Below are positions 6,596 through 12,476 of a stretch of DNA of 38,419 nucleotides, one piece after another (within the stretch, counting starts at the first letter, position 1; each line of letters starts with the position of its first letter). Under the pieces are notes generated by a model. The model was not told where the DNA came from. It did not search any database and saw only the letters and a program-made list of their open reading frames with translations. The stretch comes from a virus. The translations under genes were made by a program, and so were the position numbers. The stretch is from positions 1-38,419 of IMG/VR virus record IMGVR_UViG_3300012964_000026. One strand, given 5' to 3'.

Positions 6596-6635
6596 TGATC
6601 CCAAGCGTGAGCGGACGAGGTAGGGTGTGAGAAAA

Positions 6636-6663
6636 GGGCTCACCAGTTAGCGCTGGTGAGCCC
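6636..6663 (+). terminator. 11-bp hairpin with TTAGCG loop
   Basis: GGGCTCACCAG (6636-6646) pairs perfectly with CTGGTGAGCCC (6653-6663). The GTTAGC core at its loop recurs in the hairpins at 9916-9952 and 10924-10956, which also open structured leaders. It probably terminates 6311-6595 or attenuates transcription into 6747. Confidence 0.7.
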
Positions 6664-6669
6664 CAATCA

Positions 6670-6742
6670 GGAAGCCGCGATACCGGCAACCCGACGCTGA
6701 GGTTAACGGTAGCATCACGCGGCTTCCCCAAGTTGAGGGGAA
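6670..6742 (+). promoter_or_regulatory. Structured 5' leader with sequestered RBS (copy A)
   Basis: A closing stem pairs GGAAGCCGCG (6670-6679) with CGCGGCTTCC (6718-6727). It encloses a second stem, TACCG (6681-6685) with CGGTA (6707-6711), continued by AACC with GGTT. An alternative hairpin pairs TTCCCC (6724-6729) with GGGGAA (6737-6742) and would bury the ribosome-binding site GAGGGG of 6747. The two states share TTCC and exclude each other, which is the layout of a translational switch. The loop AAGTTGA recurs before genes 10058 and, as AGTTGA, 11068. Confidence 0.55.
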
Positions 6743-6746
6743 CGAC

Positions 6747-7871
6747 GTGGTTGACACTGGGATCTCGATCTCCAGCAACATCGAGATCATGATCGAGACT
6801 GAGCGACTGAGTGATCATTTCCTCATGAGCCCAAATGATCTTCATCGTGGTATGGGCGAGTGGGCGGGTCTCACCCTCAGGGCACGAGCCCTACTGGCAG
6901 CACTCCTGACGACGAAGTCAGGGTGGACGACAAGCCGGTCGGCGGTAGACGCGCTCGCCCCGGAACTGGGAGTCAAGGGCGTCACCACGGTGCTCAATGA
7001 GCTGAAGGCTAGAAGATTCCTATACACACACAGAGTCAACGCTGGTAACGGTAAGTTCACATGGCGCTGGTTCGTGTACCTCCGGCCTAGGGCGGAGGGG
7101 TTCGCCTCAATGGGTGCCGAAAGTTATCCACAGGCACTGCCCTCAGGGCATGATGGTGGTGACCTGCGGAAACAGAATGTTTTCCCTGGTCGCACCATAC
7201 GGCCCTCAGCCACCGATGGCCAAGGGCAGTCCATAAGAAGTACCTCTCTTTTAGAAGTACCAGAAGAACTAACCCCCCCTACCCCCCACGTCGTCGCGGC
7301 CGGCACCGCGCCGGTTCCGGCCGCGACGGAGGGGGAGGGAAGCTTCGCAAGGAAAATCCCAACCCAAACCGAGGAGCGCTCCGAGAGTGAGGGGCAACTC
7401 GTCCTCAGGGACATCTGCCATCAGATGCCACCCAGTCTCATCCCCATCAACGGCAACCGGGCGCGCCTACTCGTCCTCGCGAACCGGGCGCTATCCGCTG
7501 GATGGTCACGTCAGGCCCTCGTCGATCGCCTTGGCGGCAATGGGCTTGAGGCCCTGGACAATCCCGGCCGTGTGTTCGGGATGCTCCGGTATCGGCTGGA
7601 GCATGTTGGAACACCGGAGGACTACCGTCCGGTGCCGTCTCGCCCCTTGGTGGCGGGCCGTACACGGCACCACCGGTACGTTGAGGATATGGCTGGCTAC
7701 GACCAATGCGCCGTGTGCGGCATGGGTAGGGGCAACTTCAGACATGGCGCGGATGCCCCTGAGATCGTCCCTGCCGAGATGGAACCCGGGATTGTGGCCG
7801 ATGTGTCGGCTACGCCCGACGAGGCCGCTGTTAGGTCTCTCGTCGGCGCGTTCCGTGGGCTGTCGATGTGA
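6747..7871 (+). CDS. Replication-initiator-like protein (winged HTH, C-terminal zinc knuckle)
   Basis: This 374-aa protein likely acts at the phage replication origin. Residues about 38-110 form a winged helix of the kind in phage replisome organisers: L-T-L-R-A-R-A-L-L-A-A-L-L, then a T-S-R-S-A-V-D-A-L helix and a beta wing. A Pro/Ser-rich linker (about 125-215) leads to a helical domain (about 215-290), then a zinc-knuckle-like H-x-Y-V...C-A-V-C-G...H at about 314-335, and a short C-terminal helix. The start is the GTG at 6747, 7 nt after GAGGGG. The leftward gene at the right edge (37809) shares the helical domain, the knuckle and the final helix. It is coupled by TGATG to 7871-8284. Confidence 0.65.
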   Translation: MVDTGISISSNIEIMIETERLSDHFLMSPNDLHRGMGEWAGLTLRARALLAALLTTKSGWTTSRSAVDALAPELGVKGVTTVLNELKARRFLYTHRVNAGNGKFTWRWFVYLRPRAEGFASMGAESYPQALPSGHDGGDLRKQNVFPGRTIRPSATDGQGQSIRSTSLLEVPEELTPPTPHVVAAGTAPVPAATEGEGSFARKIPTQTEERSESEGQLVLRDICHQMPPSLIPINGNRARLLVLANRALSAGWSRQALVDRLGGNGLEALDNPGRVFGMLRYRLEHVGTPEDYRPVPSRPLVAGRTRHHRYVEDMAGYDQCAVCGMGRGNFRHGADAPEIVPAEMEPGIVADVSATPDEAAVRSLVGAFRGLSM

Positions 7872-8695: not shown

Positions 8696-8730
8696 GGTCA
8701 CTGTGTCTTGGCGCGTTTGGTGGTACCGAC

Positions 8731-8759
8731 TTCCCTCATGCCGTGCAGTACGGCATTAT
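8731..8759 (+). promoter_or_regulatory. Operator-controlled promoter, copy 1
   Basis: An inverted repeat, ATGCCGT (8738-8744) and ACGGCAT (8750-8756), fills the space before the -10 box CATTAT (8754-8759), which lies 6 nt before the ATG at 8766. The -35 position (TTCCCT, 8731-8736) is weak. The whole ATGCCGTGCAGTACGGCAT block plus TATG recurs at 9089-9111. Confidence 0.65.
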
Positions 8760-8765
8760 GGGGTG

Positions 8766-9089
8766 ATGAATGTCAACGAAGAAGCCCGGGACGACCAGGA
8801 GGTCATGCCGACTGAGAGACTTGCCAGTCTCTTGTACGGCAGGCCAGAAGATCAACCAGAAGATCAACTGGGGCGAGAGGCGGCGCGGCGTCGGCGTCGG
8901 CGGCTTAGTGACGCGGCGAAGGAGGCTCGCCGCATGGGCCTGGTCCCCGTGCCGGATCGTAGGTCTGGCACGGGGCAGCTTCTGTGGCCCATTGAGCTGG
9001 TGACTCTGGCTCTGGCCAATAGGAAGGGTCGGGGCAACTGGGGGAGACGTGGTGTGTCACTCGGTGGTGGTGAGTCGGGACTTGCATAA
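8766..9089 (+). CDS. Hypothetical basic 107-aa protein
   Basis: An acidic N-terminus (residues 1-40) is followed by an Arg-rich run at about 44-52, a helix A-A-K-E-A-R-R-M, and a Gly/Arg-rich tail that suggests nucleic-acid contact. The start at 8766 fits the promoter (-10 box 6 nt upstream); GGGG between them is a poor ribosome-binding site. An upstream in-frame ATG at 8688 lies inside the terminator hairpin and is rejected. The gene is bracketed by two copies of the same operator, so it is a candidate for self-regulation. Confidence 0.6.
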   Translation: MNVNEEARDDQEVMPTERLASLLYGRPEDQPEDQLGREAARRRRRRLSDAAKEARRMGLVPVPDRRSGTGQLLWPIELVTLALANRKGRGNWGRRGVSLGGGESGLA

Positions 9090-9110
9090 TGCCGTGCAGT
9101 ACGGCATTAT
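9082..9110 (+). promoter_or_regulatory. Operator-controlled promoter, copy 2
   Basis: TTGCAT (9082-9087), a 17-bp spacer and CATTAT (9105-9110) form a good promoter for 9153-9908. The 21-bp operator AATGCCGT-gcagt-ACGGCATT (9088-9108) occupies the whole spacer, so a bound protein would exclude RNA polymerase. Confidence 0.7.
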
Positions 9111-9152
9111 GAGGGAGTCGAAGTCAGAGACACGACGAACCAGGGAGACGAC

Positions 9153-9915: not shown

Positions 9916-10036
9916 GGCCGCTCCGAGATGGGGTTAGCACCTCGGAACGGCCAGCATCAGGATCTTAGGGTGTGCTGGAGCCGGCCAGCCAATCGCGTGT
10001 CAGGGCGCGGCACCCACTGGAATCCCCATTGGGGGA
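9916..10036 (+). promoter_or_regulatory. Structured leader RNA, copy B
   Basis: The opening hairpin (9916-9952) has a GGGGTTAGCAC loop. A three-stem module follows: P1 GGGTGT (9968-9973) with GCACCC (10010-10015), P2 GCTGG (9974-9978) with CCAGC (9985-9989), and P3 CGCGT (9994-9998) with GCGCG (10005-10009). Stem P4, TCCCC (10023-10027) with GGGGGA (10031-10036), comes next, then CAAGTTGA and the GAAGGG ribosome-binding site of gene 10058. Copy C (10924-11043) keeps every stem, with G-to-A changes that turn G-U pairs into A-U pairs. Confidence 0.65.
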
Positions 10037-10057
10037 ACCAAGTTGAAGGGACTCACC

Positions 10058-10912
10058 ATGACCACTACCAGAATCGACGTTGACGCGGCATTGATCGCCC
10101 TAGGGGCGAAGACACTGGATGGCCAGCCGAATCGTCCATGTATTCGTGGCGGGCTCAACGGCATCGAAGAGATCTACAATGCTGCCTCAATTGAGGTAGC
10201 CGACGCTAATAGTGTCCTCAAGCGGTTGATGGCAGCCCTACACGGTGCGTGGAGTCGTGGGAATGTTGAGTTCAGCGCGGAGCGCATTGGGGAACCTATC
10301 GGTGAGGAGTACGGGACATGCTGGCAGACATCTGCCAGGCTCCGCATCACAGTGTCTAGCACAGGTGGATTGTGGAAGCACCGGTCATACAGGATGGTCA
10401 CCGTCGCCACGGTGACCGAGGATGAGTACGGAACTCATGGCTGGTTCGGTGGACGTGGCGCGGCCTACGTCACTAGCAACGATGGGGAAGACGCGACCGT
10501 GTTCGGTGGCTACGCGGTTGGCGCGGCCATAGCGCACCTGTATTTCGCGCGAGGTTGCGCACGACGGAAGATTTCTTCTGTGATCTCCTCTGCGACGTCT
10601 GAACCGGCTCCCGCGTGGCATGCCCACGCTCGTGGGGAACTAGCCGAGCTAATCAGTCTCGGCATGGATGACGAGTGGCATACTCCAGCTTTGATCGCAC
10701 TCTCTCATGCGACCGATGAGATGGTGATCAAAGCCGTTGAGGAGTGGATCTCTCTGTGGCCAGAGAATCCTGCCAGGGCTAAGGCCATGCTGGCCGAGAC
10801 ACCAGACGATTGGTCTACTGGGGTGTATCTCCTAATCGAGCCGAAGACTCGTAAGTTCCTGGCGGACACGATCAATGATGTGCTACGAGAGGTGAAGTGT
10901 GGTGAGGGCTGA
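10058..10912 (+). CDS. Hypothetical 284-aa protein
   Basis: The start at 10058 follows GAAGGG by 8 nt; the TTG at 10043 is not needed. No family is recognised. The N-terminal third is helical with small residues, the middle is beta-rich with T-V-A-T-V-T and several Gly/Trp turns (about 112-160), and the C-terminal part is helical with repeated Trp (W-I-S-L-W) and Pro. It has its own structured leader, shared in form with 11068-11760 and 6747-7871, which suggests common post-transcriptional control. Confidence 0.65.
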   Translation: MTTTRIDVDAALIALGAKTLDGQPNRPCIRGGLNGIEEIYNAASIEVADANSVLKRLMAALHGAWSRGNVEFSAERIGEPIGEEYGTCWQTSARLRITVSSTGGLWKHRSYRMVTVATVTEDEYGTHGWFGGRGAAYVTSNDGEDATVFGGYAVGAAIAHLYFARGCARRKISSVISSATSEPAPAWHAHARGELAELISLGMDDEWHTPALIALSHATDEMVIKAVEEWISLWPENPARAKAMLAETPDDWSTGVYLLIEPKTRKFLADTINDVLREVKCGEG

Positions 10913-10923
10913 GTCGCGTCTGA

Positions 10924-11043
10924 CCGCTCCGAGATGGGGTTAGCACCTCGGAGCGGCATCACCAATTGTATTGGGGTGTGCTGGAGCTGGCCAGCCAATC
11001 GCGTGTCAGGACGCGACACCCACTGAGGTTTCCATCGGGAACC
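10924..11043 (+). promoter_or_regulatory. Structured leader RNA, copy C
   Basis: The opening hairpin CCGCTCCGAG (10924-10933) with CTCGGAGCGG (10947-10956) has the same GTTAGC loop as copy B. The module follows: P1 GGGTGT (10974-10979) with ACACCC (11016-11021), P2 GCTGG (10980-10984) with CCAGC (10991-10995), P3 CGCGT (11000-11004) with ACGCG (11011-11015), and P4 GGTTTCC (11027-11033) with GGGAACC (11037-11043). CAGTTGA follows, then GAGGAG before gene 11068. P4 differs in sequence from copy B but still pairs, which is evidence for selection on structure. Confidence 0.65.
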
Positions 11044-11067
11044 AGTTGAGTGAGGAGAGAAATAGAT

Positions 11068-11760
11068 ATGAACTCGATTCGGGACGCTATCAAGCGATTC
11101 GAGATGGCGCGTTGCCTACTGAATTACGGATTTACAATTGAACAGCAAACGCTCGACACCATCCTCGGACTCGATGAGTTCTTTCTTGAGTCCGAGTGTG
11201 AGGAATCAATTAGAGCTATTATGGTGGAATATGCGAATACGCTTCTCAGGGAGCGCGACGAACAGGAGTATGGTGAATTGGACCGCGAACTCACATATTC
11301 ATCTGTTCCCAGTGTCGATATAACCAATCTTACGATTAGTTATATGAACGAGAGTGGGAATATGTGTATCACGGTTCGTTCTGGAAAGCTGTTGATTGTT
11401 AGAACAAATCAAATGGATCCAGAGAGTCCAAATGATATAGCCTTGTGGTTATTGTCAGATGGGGATAACAGTTTCGAGTTGAATAAACTACGGGTTATCG
11501 AGGGAATCTCCGTGCTCATAGCCCATGGCATGAGCGTAGAATACGCCCGTGATAGGGCGAGACAACATCACATTGAGTGTGGTGTTGAGAGTATTATCCA
11601 TGAGATCGATAGTCGTAGGGTTGGTCTATGGCTGTTGGATAGGAAGTGGTGTCAGTACGCGTGGCAGCGTATTCCGGGTGGGGATACTCTGCCACCGGAG
11701 GTGCGTGGTATGGCTAAGACCATTAGATACGCTGTTAGCTCACCGGTGTCACTGGGTTAG
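11068..11760 (+). CDS. Hypothetical 230-aa protein, AT-rich
   Basis: No family is recognised. The protein is acidic and mostly helical at the N-terminus (about 1-75), then beta-rich (about 80-130), then helical, with D-S-R-R-V-G-L-W-L-L-D-R-K-W near the C-terminus. The ATG at 11068 has GAGGAG about 10 nt upstream; the upstream in-frame GTG at 11050 overlaps that site. Base composition is visibly more AT-rich than neighbours, as in 294-1343, which hints at recent acquisition. It is followed 16 nt later by the tRNA-like element. Confidence 0.65.
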   Translation: MNSIRDAIKRFEMARCLLNYGFTIEQQTLDTILGLDEFFLESECEESIRAIMVEYANTLLRERDEQEYGELDRELTYSSVPSVDITNLTISYMNESGNMCITVRSGKLLIVRTNQMDPESPNDIALWLLSDGDNSFELNKLRVIEGISVLIAHGMSVEYARDRARQHHIECGVESIIHEIDSRRVGLWLLDRKWCQYAWQRIPGGDTLPPEVRGMAKTIRYAVSSPVSLG

Positions 11761-11776
11761 AACAAATAGGTAAATA

Positions 11777-11824
11777 GGTGTGTCCGAGGCTGGTCGGGTA
11801 TGGGGTTCGAGTCCCTACACACCA
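11777..11824 (+). ncRNA. 48-nt tRNA-like element without an anticodon arm
   Basis: A perfect 7-bp acceptor-type stem pairs GGTGTGT (11777-11783) with ACACACC (11817-11823) and is followed by an unpaired A. Inside it are a D-arm-like hairpin, CCGA-GGCTGG-TCGG (11784-11797), and a textbook T arm whose loop is TTCGAGT, closed by a 5-bp stem at 11802-11818. Only the anticodon arm and variable region are missing, so the element is 48 nt instead of about 73. A T5 run follows about 6 nt later, as for an independent transcript. It could be a decayed tRNA, an attachment-site remnant or a functional tRNA mimic. Confidence 0.6.
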
Positions 11825-11850
11825 CTAGTTTTTCGTCTATGCTCTGTGCG

Positions 11851-11964
11851 ATGGAAGATCATCTCGTGGATGGTGTGTGTGGGACGACGGCGGGATGTCG
11901 GACACACACACGTCGTGGTGAGAGTGTGTGCGAGCCGTGCCATGTCGCGTGTCTGGAGTGTTGA
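11851..11964 (+). CDS. Single-repeat CGTxAG zinc-motif protein (37 aa)
   Basis: This 37-aa frame contains one copy of the repeat found four times in the next gene: C-G-T-T-A-G-C, an H, R-R-G-E, then C-E-P-C. The Cys and His spacing suggests a small zinc site. The stop overlaps the next ATG (TGATG). A TATGCT box lies 7 nt before the ATG, so it may be leaderless. Alternatively a frameshift has split one five-repeat protein; the join falls where a linker between repeats would be. Confidence 0.5.
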   Translation: MEDHLVDGVCGTTAGCRTHTRRGESVCEPCHVACLEC

Positions 11965-12476
11965 TGGTTGAGTGCGGAACGGCCGCTGGGTATCTCGGGC
12001 ACCTGTATCGGGGTGAGGTTCCCTGTGGTCCGTGTCGAGTGGCTCACTCGAACATTGGGTCTGACGGGTGTGGCACGATCGCCGGATATGGTCGGCATAT
12101 CAGGAGACATGAGCGGCCTTGCGAGAGGTGCCGCCTGGCGTGCCGCCAGTGGCATCGTGAGTATCGGAGTGAGCGTGGGCGTACGGGTGTTCTCCGTGGT
12201 TATAGGCGTGCGAGGTGCGGGACTTTGGGTGGCAGGAGTCGGCATTATCGTCTTGGGGAGGAGGTTTGTTCGGCGTGTCGGCAGGCGATGATGGATCATG
12301 TTAGGGCGATGCGGAGTGGTGGATACGCTATCCCAAATGATTTCTTACGTTGTGGTACGAATGCCGGGTATCAGGCGCATTGGATAAGGGGGGAGACGAC
12401 CTGTCCGGCGTGCCGAGAGGCGCACAACGCGTACAACAGGGCTCGTAAGGAACTCAAGCGTCATGATCATCAATGA
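11964..12476 (+). CDS. Four-repeat CGTxAGY zinc-motif protein (170 aa)
   Basis: Four copies of a motif of about 35 residues follow one another: C-G-T-x-A/G-G-Y/R, a conserved His three residues on, G-E or R-P, then C-x-x-C-R-x-A. The units start at about residues 4, 35, 83 and 128. Such units are recurrent in actinophages, usually as single-copy hypothetical proteins. The Cys/His pattern suggests one zinc per unit and RNA or DNA contact, given the basic linkers (R-R-x-R, R-K-E-L-K-R). The start at 11964 is coupled to the upstream 37-aa frame; the longer frame from 11928 has no support. Confidence 0.7.
   Translation: MVECGTAAGYLGHLYRGEVPCGPCRVAHSNIGSDGCGTIAGYGRHIRRHERPCERCRLACRQWHREYRSERGRTGVLRGYRRARCGTLGGRSRHYRLGEEVCSACRQAMMDHVRAMRSGGYAIPNDFLRCGTNAGYQAHWIRGETTCPACREAHNAYNRARKELKRHDHQ

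Follow-up and report, generated by a model that had tools for sequence, protein, structure and literature searches.

In mitochondria, tRNAs between cistrons act as punctuation, and maturation enzymes cut the transcript at these tRNAs. Processing of polycistronic mitochondrial transcripts has been treated elsewhere (PMC8003010). Substrates reported for RNase P include the M3 and C4 RNAs of phages, tRNA-like structures, and mRNAs (PMC11143913). Such substrates, which include intercistronic sites in polycistronic mRNAs of E. coli, involve tRNA-like recognition (PMC11143913). The tRNA-like domain of tmRNA has an acceptor stem, a T-arm, and GG in the D-loop region, with no anticodon arm. In Cluster K mycobacteriophages, inverted-repeat elements called SAS and ESAS are found just before the start codons of many non-structural genes (PMC3203893). 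SAS spans 13 bp and lies 3-7 bp ahead of the start, and ESAS is a 17-bp inverted repeat; a T-loop or acceptor stem is described for neither (PMC3203893).

The tRNA-like elements (TLEs) that we describe here resemble each of these systems in part. As in mitochondria, they would lie between the cistrons of a polycistronic transcript. However, they are in phage DNA, do not decode, have no anticodon arm, and occur many times per genome; cutting is only proposed. The M3, C4, and E. coli substrates of RNase P are single cases, whereas TLEs are a repeated class with a canonical T-arm, an A-C flank, and a linked hairpin. Unlike tmRNA, they are embedded between genes, and no tag reading frame, pseudoknots, or CCA were seen. 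With SAS and ESAS they share position but not the described anatomy. Note that tRNA-like structures inside RNAs are already known. As far as tested, what is new is a multicopy, intercistronic series of anticodon-less elements in phage operons. We found no description of this class in the open-access literature, including comparative papers on phiJoe, Camvirus, and mycobacteriophages, an absence that is no proof.

The window, meaning the whole 38,419-nucleotide stretch of DNA analysed (IMG/VR virus record IMGVR_UViG_3300012964_000026), encodes a portal and a terminase that match actinophage proteins, with less than 50% identity. Two copies of a leader, B and C, are on the plus strand. They are 83% identical across ~130 nt; terminal GACAGG tandem repeats excepted, no other repeat pair in the window is as long. 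Both have the same order: a hairpin (H1), a three-stem module, a short hairpin (P4), then an SD and ATG. The stems of the module are named here after the tRNA parts that they resemble. In copy B, H1 (9916-9952; loop region GAGAUGGGGUUAGCACCUC) starts 8 nt beyond the stop codon of the preceding gene. The module (9968-10015) consists of acceptor GGGUGU/GCACCC, D-arm GCUGG-AGCCGG-CCAGC, linker CAAU, and T-arm-like hairpin CGCGU-GUCAGG-GCGCG, and is followed by ACU (10016-10018). P4 (10023-10035) separates the module from the SD, AAGGGA (10046-10051), and the ATG (10058-10060) begins a 284-aa open reading frame (ORF) ending at 10912. Copy C has H1 at 10924-10956 and the module at 10974-11021. Here, the acceptor is GGGUGU/ACACCC, the D-arm GCUGG-AGCUGG-CCAGC, the linker again CAAU, and the T-arm-like hairpin CGCGU-GUCAGG-ACGCG, with ACU after it (11022-11024). 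P4 (11027-11043; GGUUUCC-AUC-GGGAACC), the SD GAGGAGAG (11052-11059), and ATG (11068-11070) complete the leader, and the ORF ends at 11760. From module to ATG is 43 nt in B and 47 nt in C, with P4 between. The proteins encoded downstream of B and C are unrelated to each other, and no relatives were found in Pfam, PHROGs, viral contigs, or sequenced phages. The original prediction, that B and C share an opening hairpin and a three-stem module directly before the ribosome-binding sites of unrelated genes, is thus confirmed by identity, folding, and coordinates.

Folding supports H1, a three-way junction formed by the module, and P4, at the positions given above. For H1 alone, the signal is strong (z of -4.0 in B and -4.4 in C). 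For the junction alone, it is modest (z of -0.9 and -1.9, respectively) and, hence, two sequences and their energies are not in themselves proof of the junction. Note that, in the MFE structure for the whole of copy C, P1 is re-paired with upstream sequence; the module folded alone gives the junction described. Changes between the copies had been taken as compensatory. The pairs named are all correct, namely U-G in B and U-A in C, for both P1 and P3. However, these are one-sided wobble changes, and we reject them as compensation. P4 does re-pair, with one two-sided change from C-G to U-A. Taken alone, the pair changes between B and C argue weakly for structure. True compensation is seen only against distant relatives: L149 for the junction, and L268 and L277 for H1. 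The refuting conditions named with the original prediction do not tell against it; the relatives found elsewhere change and their pairs stay.

Positions 6636-6742 had been listed as a third copy, A. This assignment does not hold; there is no alignment with B or C, and the fold, though strong, is different. Briefly, the region (6630-6757) has a very stable two-hairpin structure (z of -6.1), which ends with CCCCAAGUUGAGGGG and precedes a GTG start; the region is similar to B and C in position but not homologous in sequence. The string CCAAGTTGA occurs upstream of the SD in both A and B. Elsewhere in the window, a near-perfect palindrome, ATAATGCCGTGCAGTACGGCAT, has two copies (8728-8763 and 9079-9114), near both ends of one short ORF; these are possible operators. 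Dense GACAGG/CGGACAG tandem repeats occupy the record's left end (1-190).

Very probably, the three-stem module of B and C is a TLE that lacks an anticodon arm. In order, its anatomy is acceptor stem, D-arm with the loop AGCYGG, 4-nt linker, and T-arm-like hairpin, then A-C-U. The D-loop of tRNA has the pattern A14-R15-Y-Y-G18-G19, and AGCYGG can be read as such. When the plus strand of the window was scanned for junctions, irrespective of loop sequence, exactly three were found: B, C, and a further element, D (11777-11823). All are followed by ACU. Element D, also found in a descriptor scan and absent from the original prediction, has acceptor GGUGUG/CACACC, a D-arm loop containing GGCUGG, and a canonical T-arm, UGGGG-UUCGAGU-CCCUA. 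It is 16 nt past the stop codon of the preceding ORF and 27 nt before a short ORF, with no clear SD or P4-type hairpin downstream. The acceptor/T stack is 6+5 bp in B, C, and D, and the D-arm of B and C is 5 bp. All three have GG in the D-loop region and none has an anticodon arm. The T-loop of D fits the pattern UUCRANY; that of B and C is the 6-nt GUCAGG, which does not. Neither Rfam nor ARAGORN called a tRNA (RF00005) or tmRNA in the window. Similarly, at gathering score in Rfam 15, the leader matched no riboswitch or other cis-regulatory family, in keeping with the earlier view that it has no named family. In the region after D (11850-12476), a possible ORF of 37 aa, rich in Cys, is followed by a 182-aa protein with repeated Cys motifs that matches PHROG WhiB-like families (E of 5e-27).

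An aligned portal profile identified 80 related viral contigs. As lone queries, neither the portal nor the phrog_16191 protein found close relatives, and genome contigs yielded no portal relatives and no exact H1. A covariance model of B and C (R1) was run over 50 of the 80 records. It returned a single clear match, in the phage of L149 (E of 6.4e-5 for that one record, with 50 searched). The L149 element, GGGUGU-GCCGG-GUCGG-CCGGC-ACA-CCGGG-UUCGACU-CCCGG-C-ACACCC-ACUAA, has an acceptor stem, D-arm, and canonical T-arm (GGUUCGACUCC), with no anticodon arm. Its acceptor has the same sequence as in copy C and, in the D-arm, a U-A pair of B and C is replaced by C-G, so that pairing is kept. The 3' flank, ACU, is common to L149, B, and C. 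The order is also the same, with stop codon, module, hairpin, SD, and AUG. Aligned with L149, B and C have the T-loop core U-C-R in register, which is no more than suggestive. Covariance models of other class members (R2 and R3) did not match B, C, or D in the window. Class membership of B and C therefore rests on L149, geometry, and position, and we read both as diverged members tied to the class through L149. Two simpler patterns were discarded on inspection, since all matches were due to chance: the core TGCTGG..CCAGCCAAT (119 stretches of viral contigs) and the loops AGCYGG..CAAT..GTCAGG (16 stretches).

H1 is a separate conserved module. Between B and C, some pairs of H1 are lost (C7 is opposite A33 in B, and G3-C37 becomes A3/C37 in C). 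A near-exact pattern of the H1 loop region identified the same hairpin in two other phages, L268 and L277. Here, stem changes are compensated, with U-A, C-G, and A-U found at one pair, and C-G and G-C at the next. In L277, H1 is directly before an SD-containing hairpin and ATG, with no TLE. L268 does have a TLE, with a 4-nt 'anticodon' loop, but before another gene. Hence, because H1 of L268 and L277 has no adjoining module, the leader of B and C consists of two modules that also occur apart. H1 is known from four sequences only. An H1-like match in Mischief19 was not counted; it is a plain hairpin, and only its opposite sense matches H1.

Elements of the same kind are present in described phages. 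BLAST searches of annotated phages with the window and L149 elements led to gaps that have no annotation, in phages of Mycobacterium, Streptomyces, and Microbacterium, and on inspection the same unit recurred many times. With four class elements as queries, matches were found at 715 places, most not inspected singly, in 149 phage records (113 from Streptomyces, 30 from Mycobacterium, 4 from Gordonia, and 2 from Microbacterium phages). In Megatron06, for example, an element reads GGGUG-ACUGGCAGACA-UCCGGG-UUCGAGU-CCCGGA-CACCC-ACGA, and is followed by a hairpin and AUG. A partial match in Enterococcus phage SAP6 was not counted. A scan for the class required only a T-arm with UUCRANY as its loop, an acceptor helix whose end is 11-13 bp from the T-loop, and A after that helix. 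This detected 8 elements in Sitrop (Camvirus), 7 in Megatron06, and, besides its genuine tRNAs, 7 in Cosmo (Wildcatvirus). Shuffled genomes gave 0 to 0.03 matches each. Five of the Cosmo elements, at 51 nt, form three-way junctions as B and C do. Across these three genomes, 20 of the 22 elements are wholly between annotated genes, and the intergenic share of sequence is 9-17%. Most start 7-15 nt past a stop codon and end 30-58 nt ahead of the next start. Send513 has 10 elements within 6 kb and, in the stretch that we read, almost all gaps longer than 40 nt contain one. No tRNA or tmRNA was called by Rfam or ARAGORN at the class loci tested.

Features of the flank, D-loop, and downstream hairpin were counted for 34 elements from five inspected phages. 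The A after the acceptor is always followed by C (34/34), and then usually by U or G (32/34). GG, needed for the tRNA elbow, is present in the D-loop region of all 34. Typically, a hairpin follows within 32 nt (mean z of -2.7, with z below -1 for 29 of the 34). In the acceptor and T-stem, 100% of cells are paired, a figure that is partly circular because the scan demands such pairing. Two-sided changes are nonetheless numerous, with 21 and 16 cells compared to 6.4 and 4.6 after shuffling, and the sequence of these stems varies freely. The D-arm is not required by the scan; in Cosmo, four of its five pairs have changed on both sides, and all are still paired. Covariation in the D-arm, C after A, the D-loop GG, the downstream hairpin, and position are all independent of the scan. 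Note that alignments in which D or L149 was mixed with Cosmo elements (MAFFT alignments A5 and A6) were misaligned and left out of the counts. Among the genuine Cosmo tRNAs in the scan, 11 of 12 have the same A-C(G/U) flank. This shared flank suggests that TLEs and tRNAs have a common 3' maturation.

Similar structures were seen outside these phages. Plasmids of Corynebacterium aurimucosum (L322) and Winkia neuii (L323) have a class-type TLE and hairpin (~1501-1543). The plasmid TLE is unannotated in 13 records, 12 from Corynebacterium and 1 from Winkia, and is upstream of repA in L323. The class may extend to actinobacterial plasmids and replication control. Two viral contigs (L240 and L265) match GGTTCGATTCCC and contain GGTGTG-AATGGTTTAT-GCGGG-TTCGATT-CCCGC-CACACC, ~30 nt before an ATG. 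The flanks are A+T-rich; these look like members of the same class, perhaps from phages of another phylum. Finally, in two phages of 57-60 kb (L253 and L273), ordinary tRNA matches are accompanied by several tRNA-like structures in which the anticodon loop is odd. These may be intermediates between tRNAs and armless elements.

We propose that the leader of B and C combines H1, a TLE, and a hairpin on the SD side, that the TLE belongs to a class that is widespread, multicopy, intercistronic, and unannotated in actinobacterial phages, and that this class punctuates phage mRNA by means of RNase P and RNase Z. Jointly, we assign these statements a probability of about 0.52. The genes would be transcribed as a polycistronic RNA; for most class members, the space from stop codon to TLE appears too small for a promoter. 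Acting as RNA, each TLE would fold to give an 11-13 bp acceptor/T-arm stack, with A after the acceptor and a tRNA-type elbow, in which the D-loop GG would meet U55-C56 of the T-loop. Cuts would be made 5' of the TLE by host RNase P, and after the post-acceptor A by an RNase Z-type activity. The downstream message would then begin with C(U/G), followed by P4 as a stable 5' hairpin, the SD, and AUG. Once released, it would be translated and decay independently. Our analysis shows how the elements fold and covary within the class, their copy number, orientation, and position, the A-C(U/G) flank in common with genuine phage tRNAs, and the P4 hairpin; action as RNA, the elbow, the cuts, and the enzymes involved are inferences. 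Processing is least certain for B and C, because of the divergent 6-nt T-loop GUCAGG; D is canonical. RNase P recognition may have been lost in B and C. The elements encode no CCA, which lowers recognition by RNase P somewhat.

A TLE close to an SD might, alternatively, control translation by tRNA mimicry and not be cut at all, as in the thrS operator of E. coli. The TLE would be bound by the ribosome or by a protein that recognises tRNA (EF-Tu, a synthetase, SmpB, or a phage protein), and initiation at the next gene would go up or down. The constant short distance from TLE to start codon (30-58 nt), P4 adjoining the SD, and conservation of the elbow features GG and UUCRA are all consistent with this. 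However, the downstream genes are many and unrelated. Furthermore, acceptor sequences differ freely between copies, so that no single synthetase identity is kept, and the constant 7-15 nt to the upstream stop codon is left unexplained. We consider mimicry without cutting unlikely, though worth weighing. An effect on transcription is improbable. Here, the nascent TLE would be an antitermination or pausing element acting on RNA polymerase, repeated along the operon. The put RNAs of HK022 act on RNA polymerase in this way, as nascent RNA. While TLEs are indeed multicopy, one-directional, intercistronic, and among early genes, such an element needs no UUCRA loop, GG, or A-C flank shared with tRNAs, and put elements are near promoters rather than in every gap. 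Class members are located where a cut would part cistrons, right after one gene and before the hairpin-led start of the next. They also retain the parts of tRNA read by maturation enzymes (acceptor/T stack, elbow, and post-acceptor A), and have dropped the decoding parts. Because of this position, the parts kept, and the reported non-tRNA substrates of RNase P, we favour punctuation over control of either translation or transcription, at about even odds.

The original prediction saw a cis-regulatory RNA. The conserved, structured leader before ribosome-binding sites stands, but a classical leader responsive to a ligand or protein is not where the wider evidence leads. If B and C were such a leader, specific to one phage group, their likeness to tRNA would be convergence. 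In favour, B and C have no UUCRA loop, have the additional H1, and are missed by models of the other elements. Conversely, the L149 element is in the same position, and has the acceptor of C unchanged, compensation in the D-arm, and a canonical T-arm; the flank, P4, and spacing of B and C are common to the class. This makes convergence quite improbable. Decayed tRNA genes, or remnants of attachment sites, would account for the tRNA-like anatomy, given that tRNAs occur in phage genomes and that tRNA genes serve phages as attachment sites. However, decay would break pairs, whereas up to 10 copies in 6 kb have intact and freely varying stems, a uniformly missing anticodon arm, a fixed position, and a linked hairpin; we regard this origin as very improbable. 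The same is true for sites acting as DNA, bound by a repressor. Actinophages do have intergenic, one-directional repressor sites, known as stoperators (PMC3029335). Yet the stems of TLEs vary with pairing kept, G-U pairs are present, and a three-way junction has no logic as a DNA site.

Punctuation may go further, although we hold this wider form more tentatively. Phages would have a punctuation system of their own, in which many non-decoding mini-tRNAs, one per gap, are excised from polycistronic mRNA by host tRNA-maturation enzymes, and the resulting messages, each under separate control, have 5' ends protected by a hairpin. Once freed, the mini-tRNAs might in addition affect host tRNA metabolism in trans.

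Few viruses have been sequenced as intensively as actinophages. In the records that we inspected, gaps in operons of small genes hold a class of TLEs that is absent from the annotation. The class would be relevant to genome annotation, to the reading of phage RNA-seq, and to expression parts for use in actinobacteria. If processed as proposed, TLEs would give bacterial viruses a counterpart to tRNA punctuation in mitochondria, and would account for the separate expression of genes within long phage operons.
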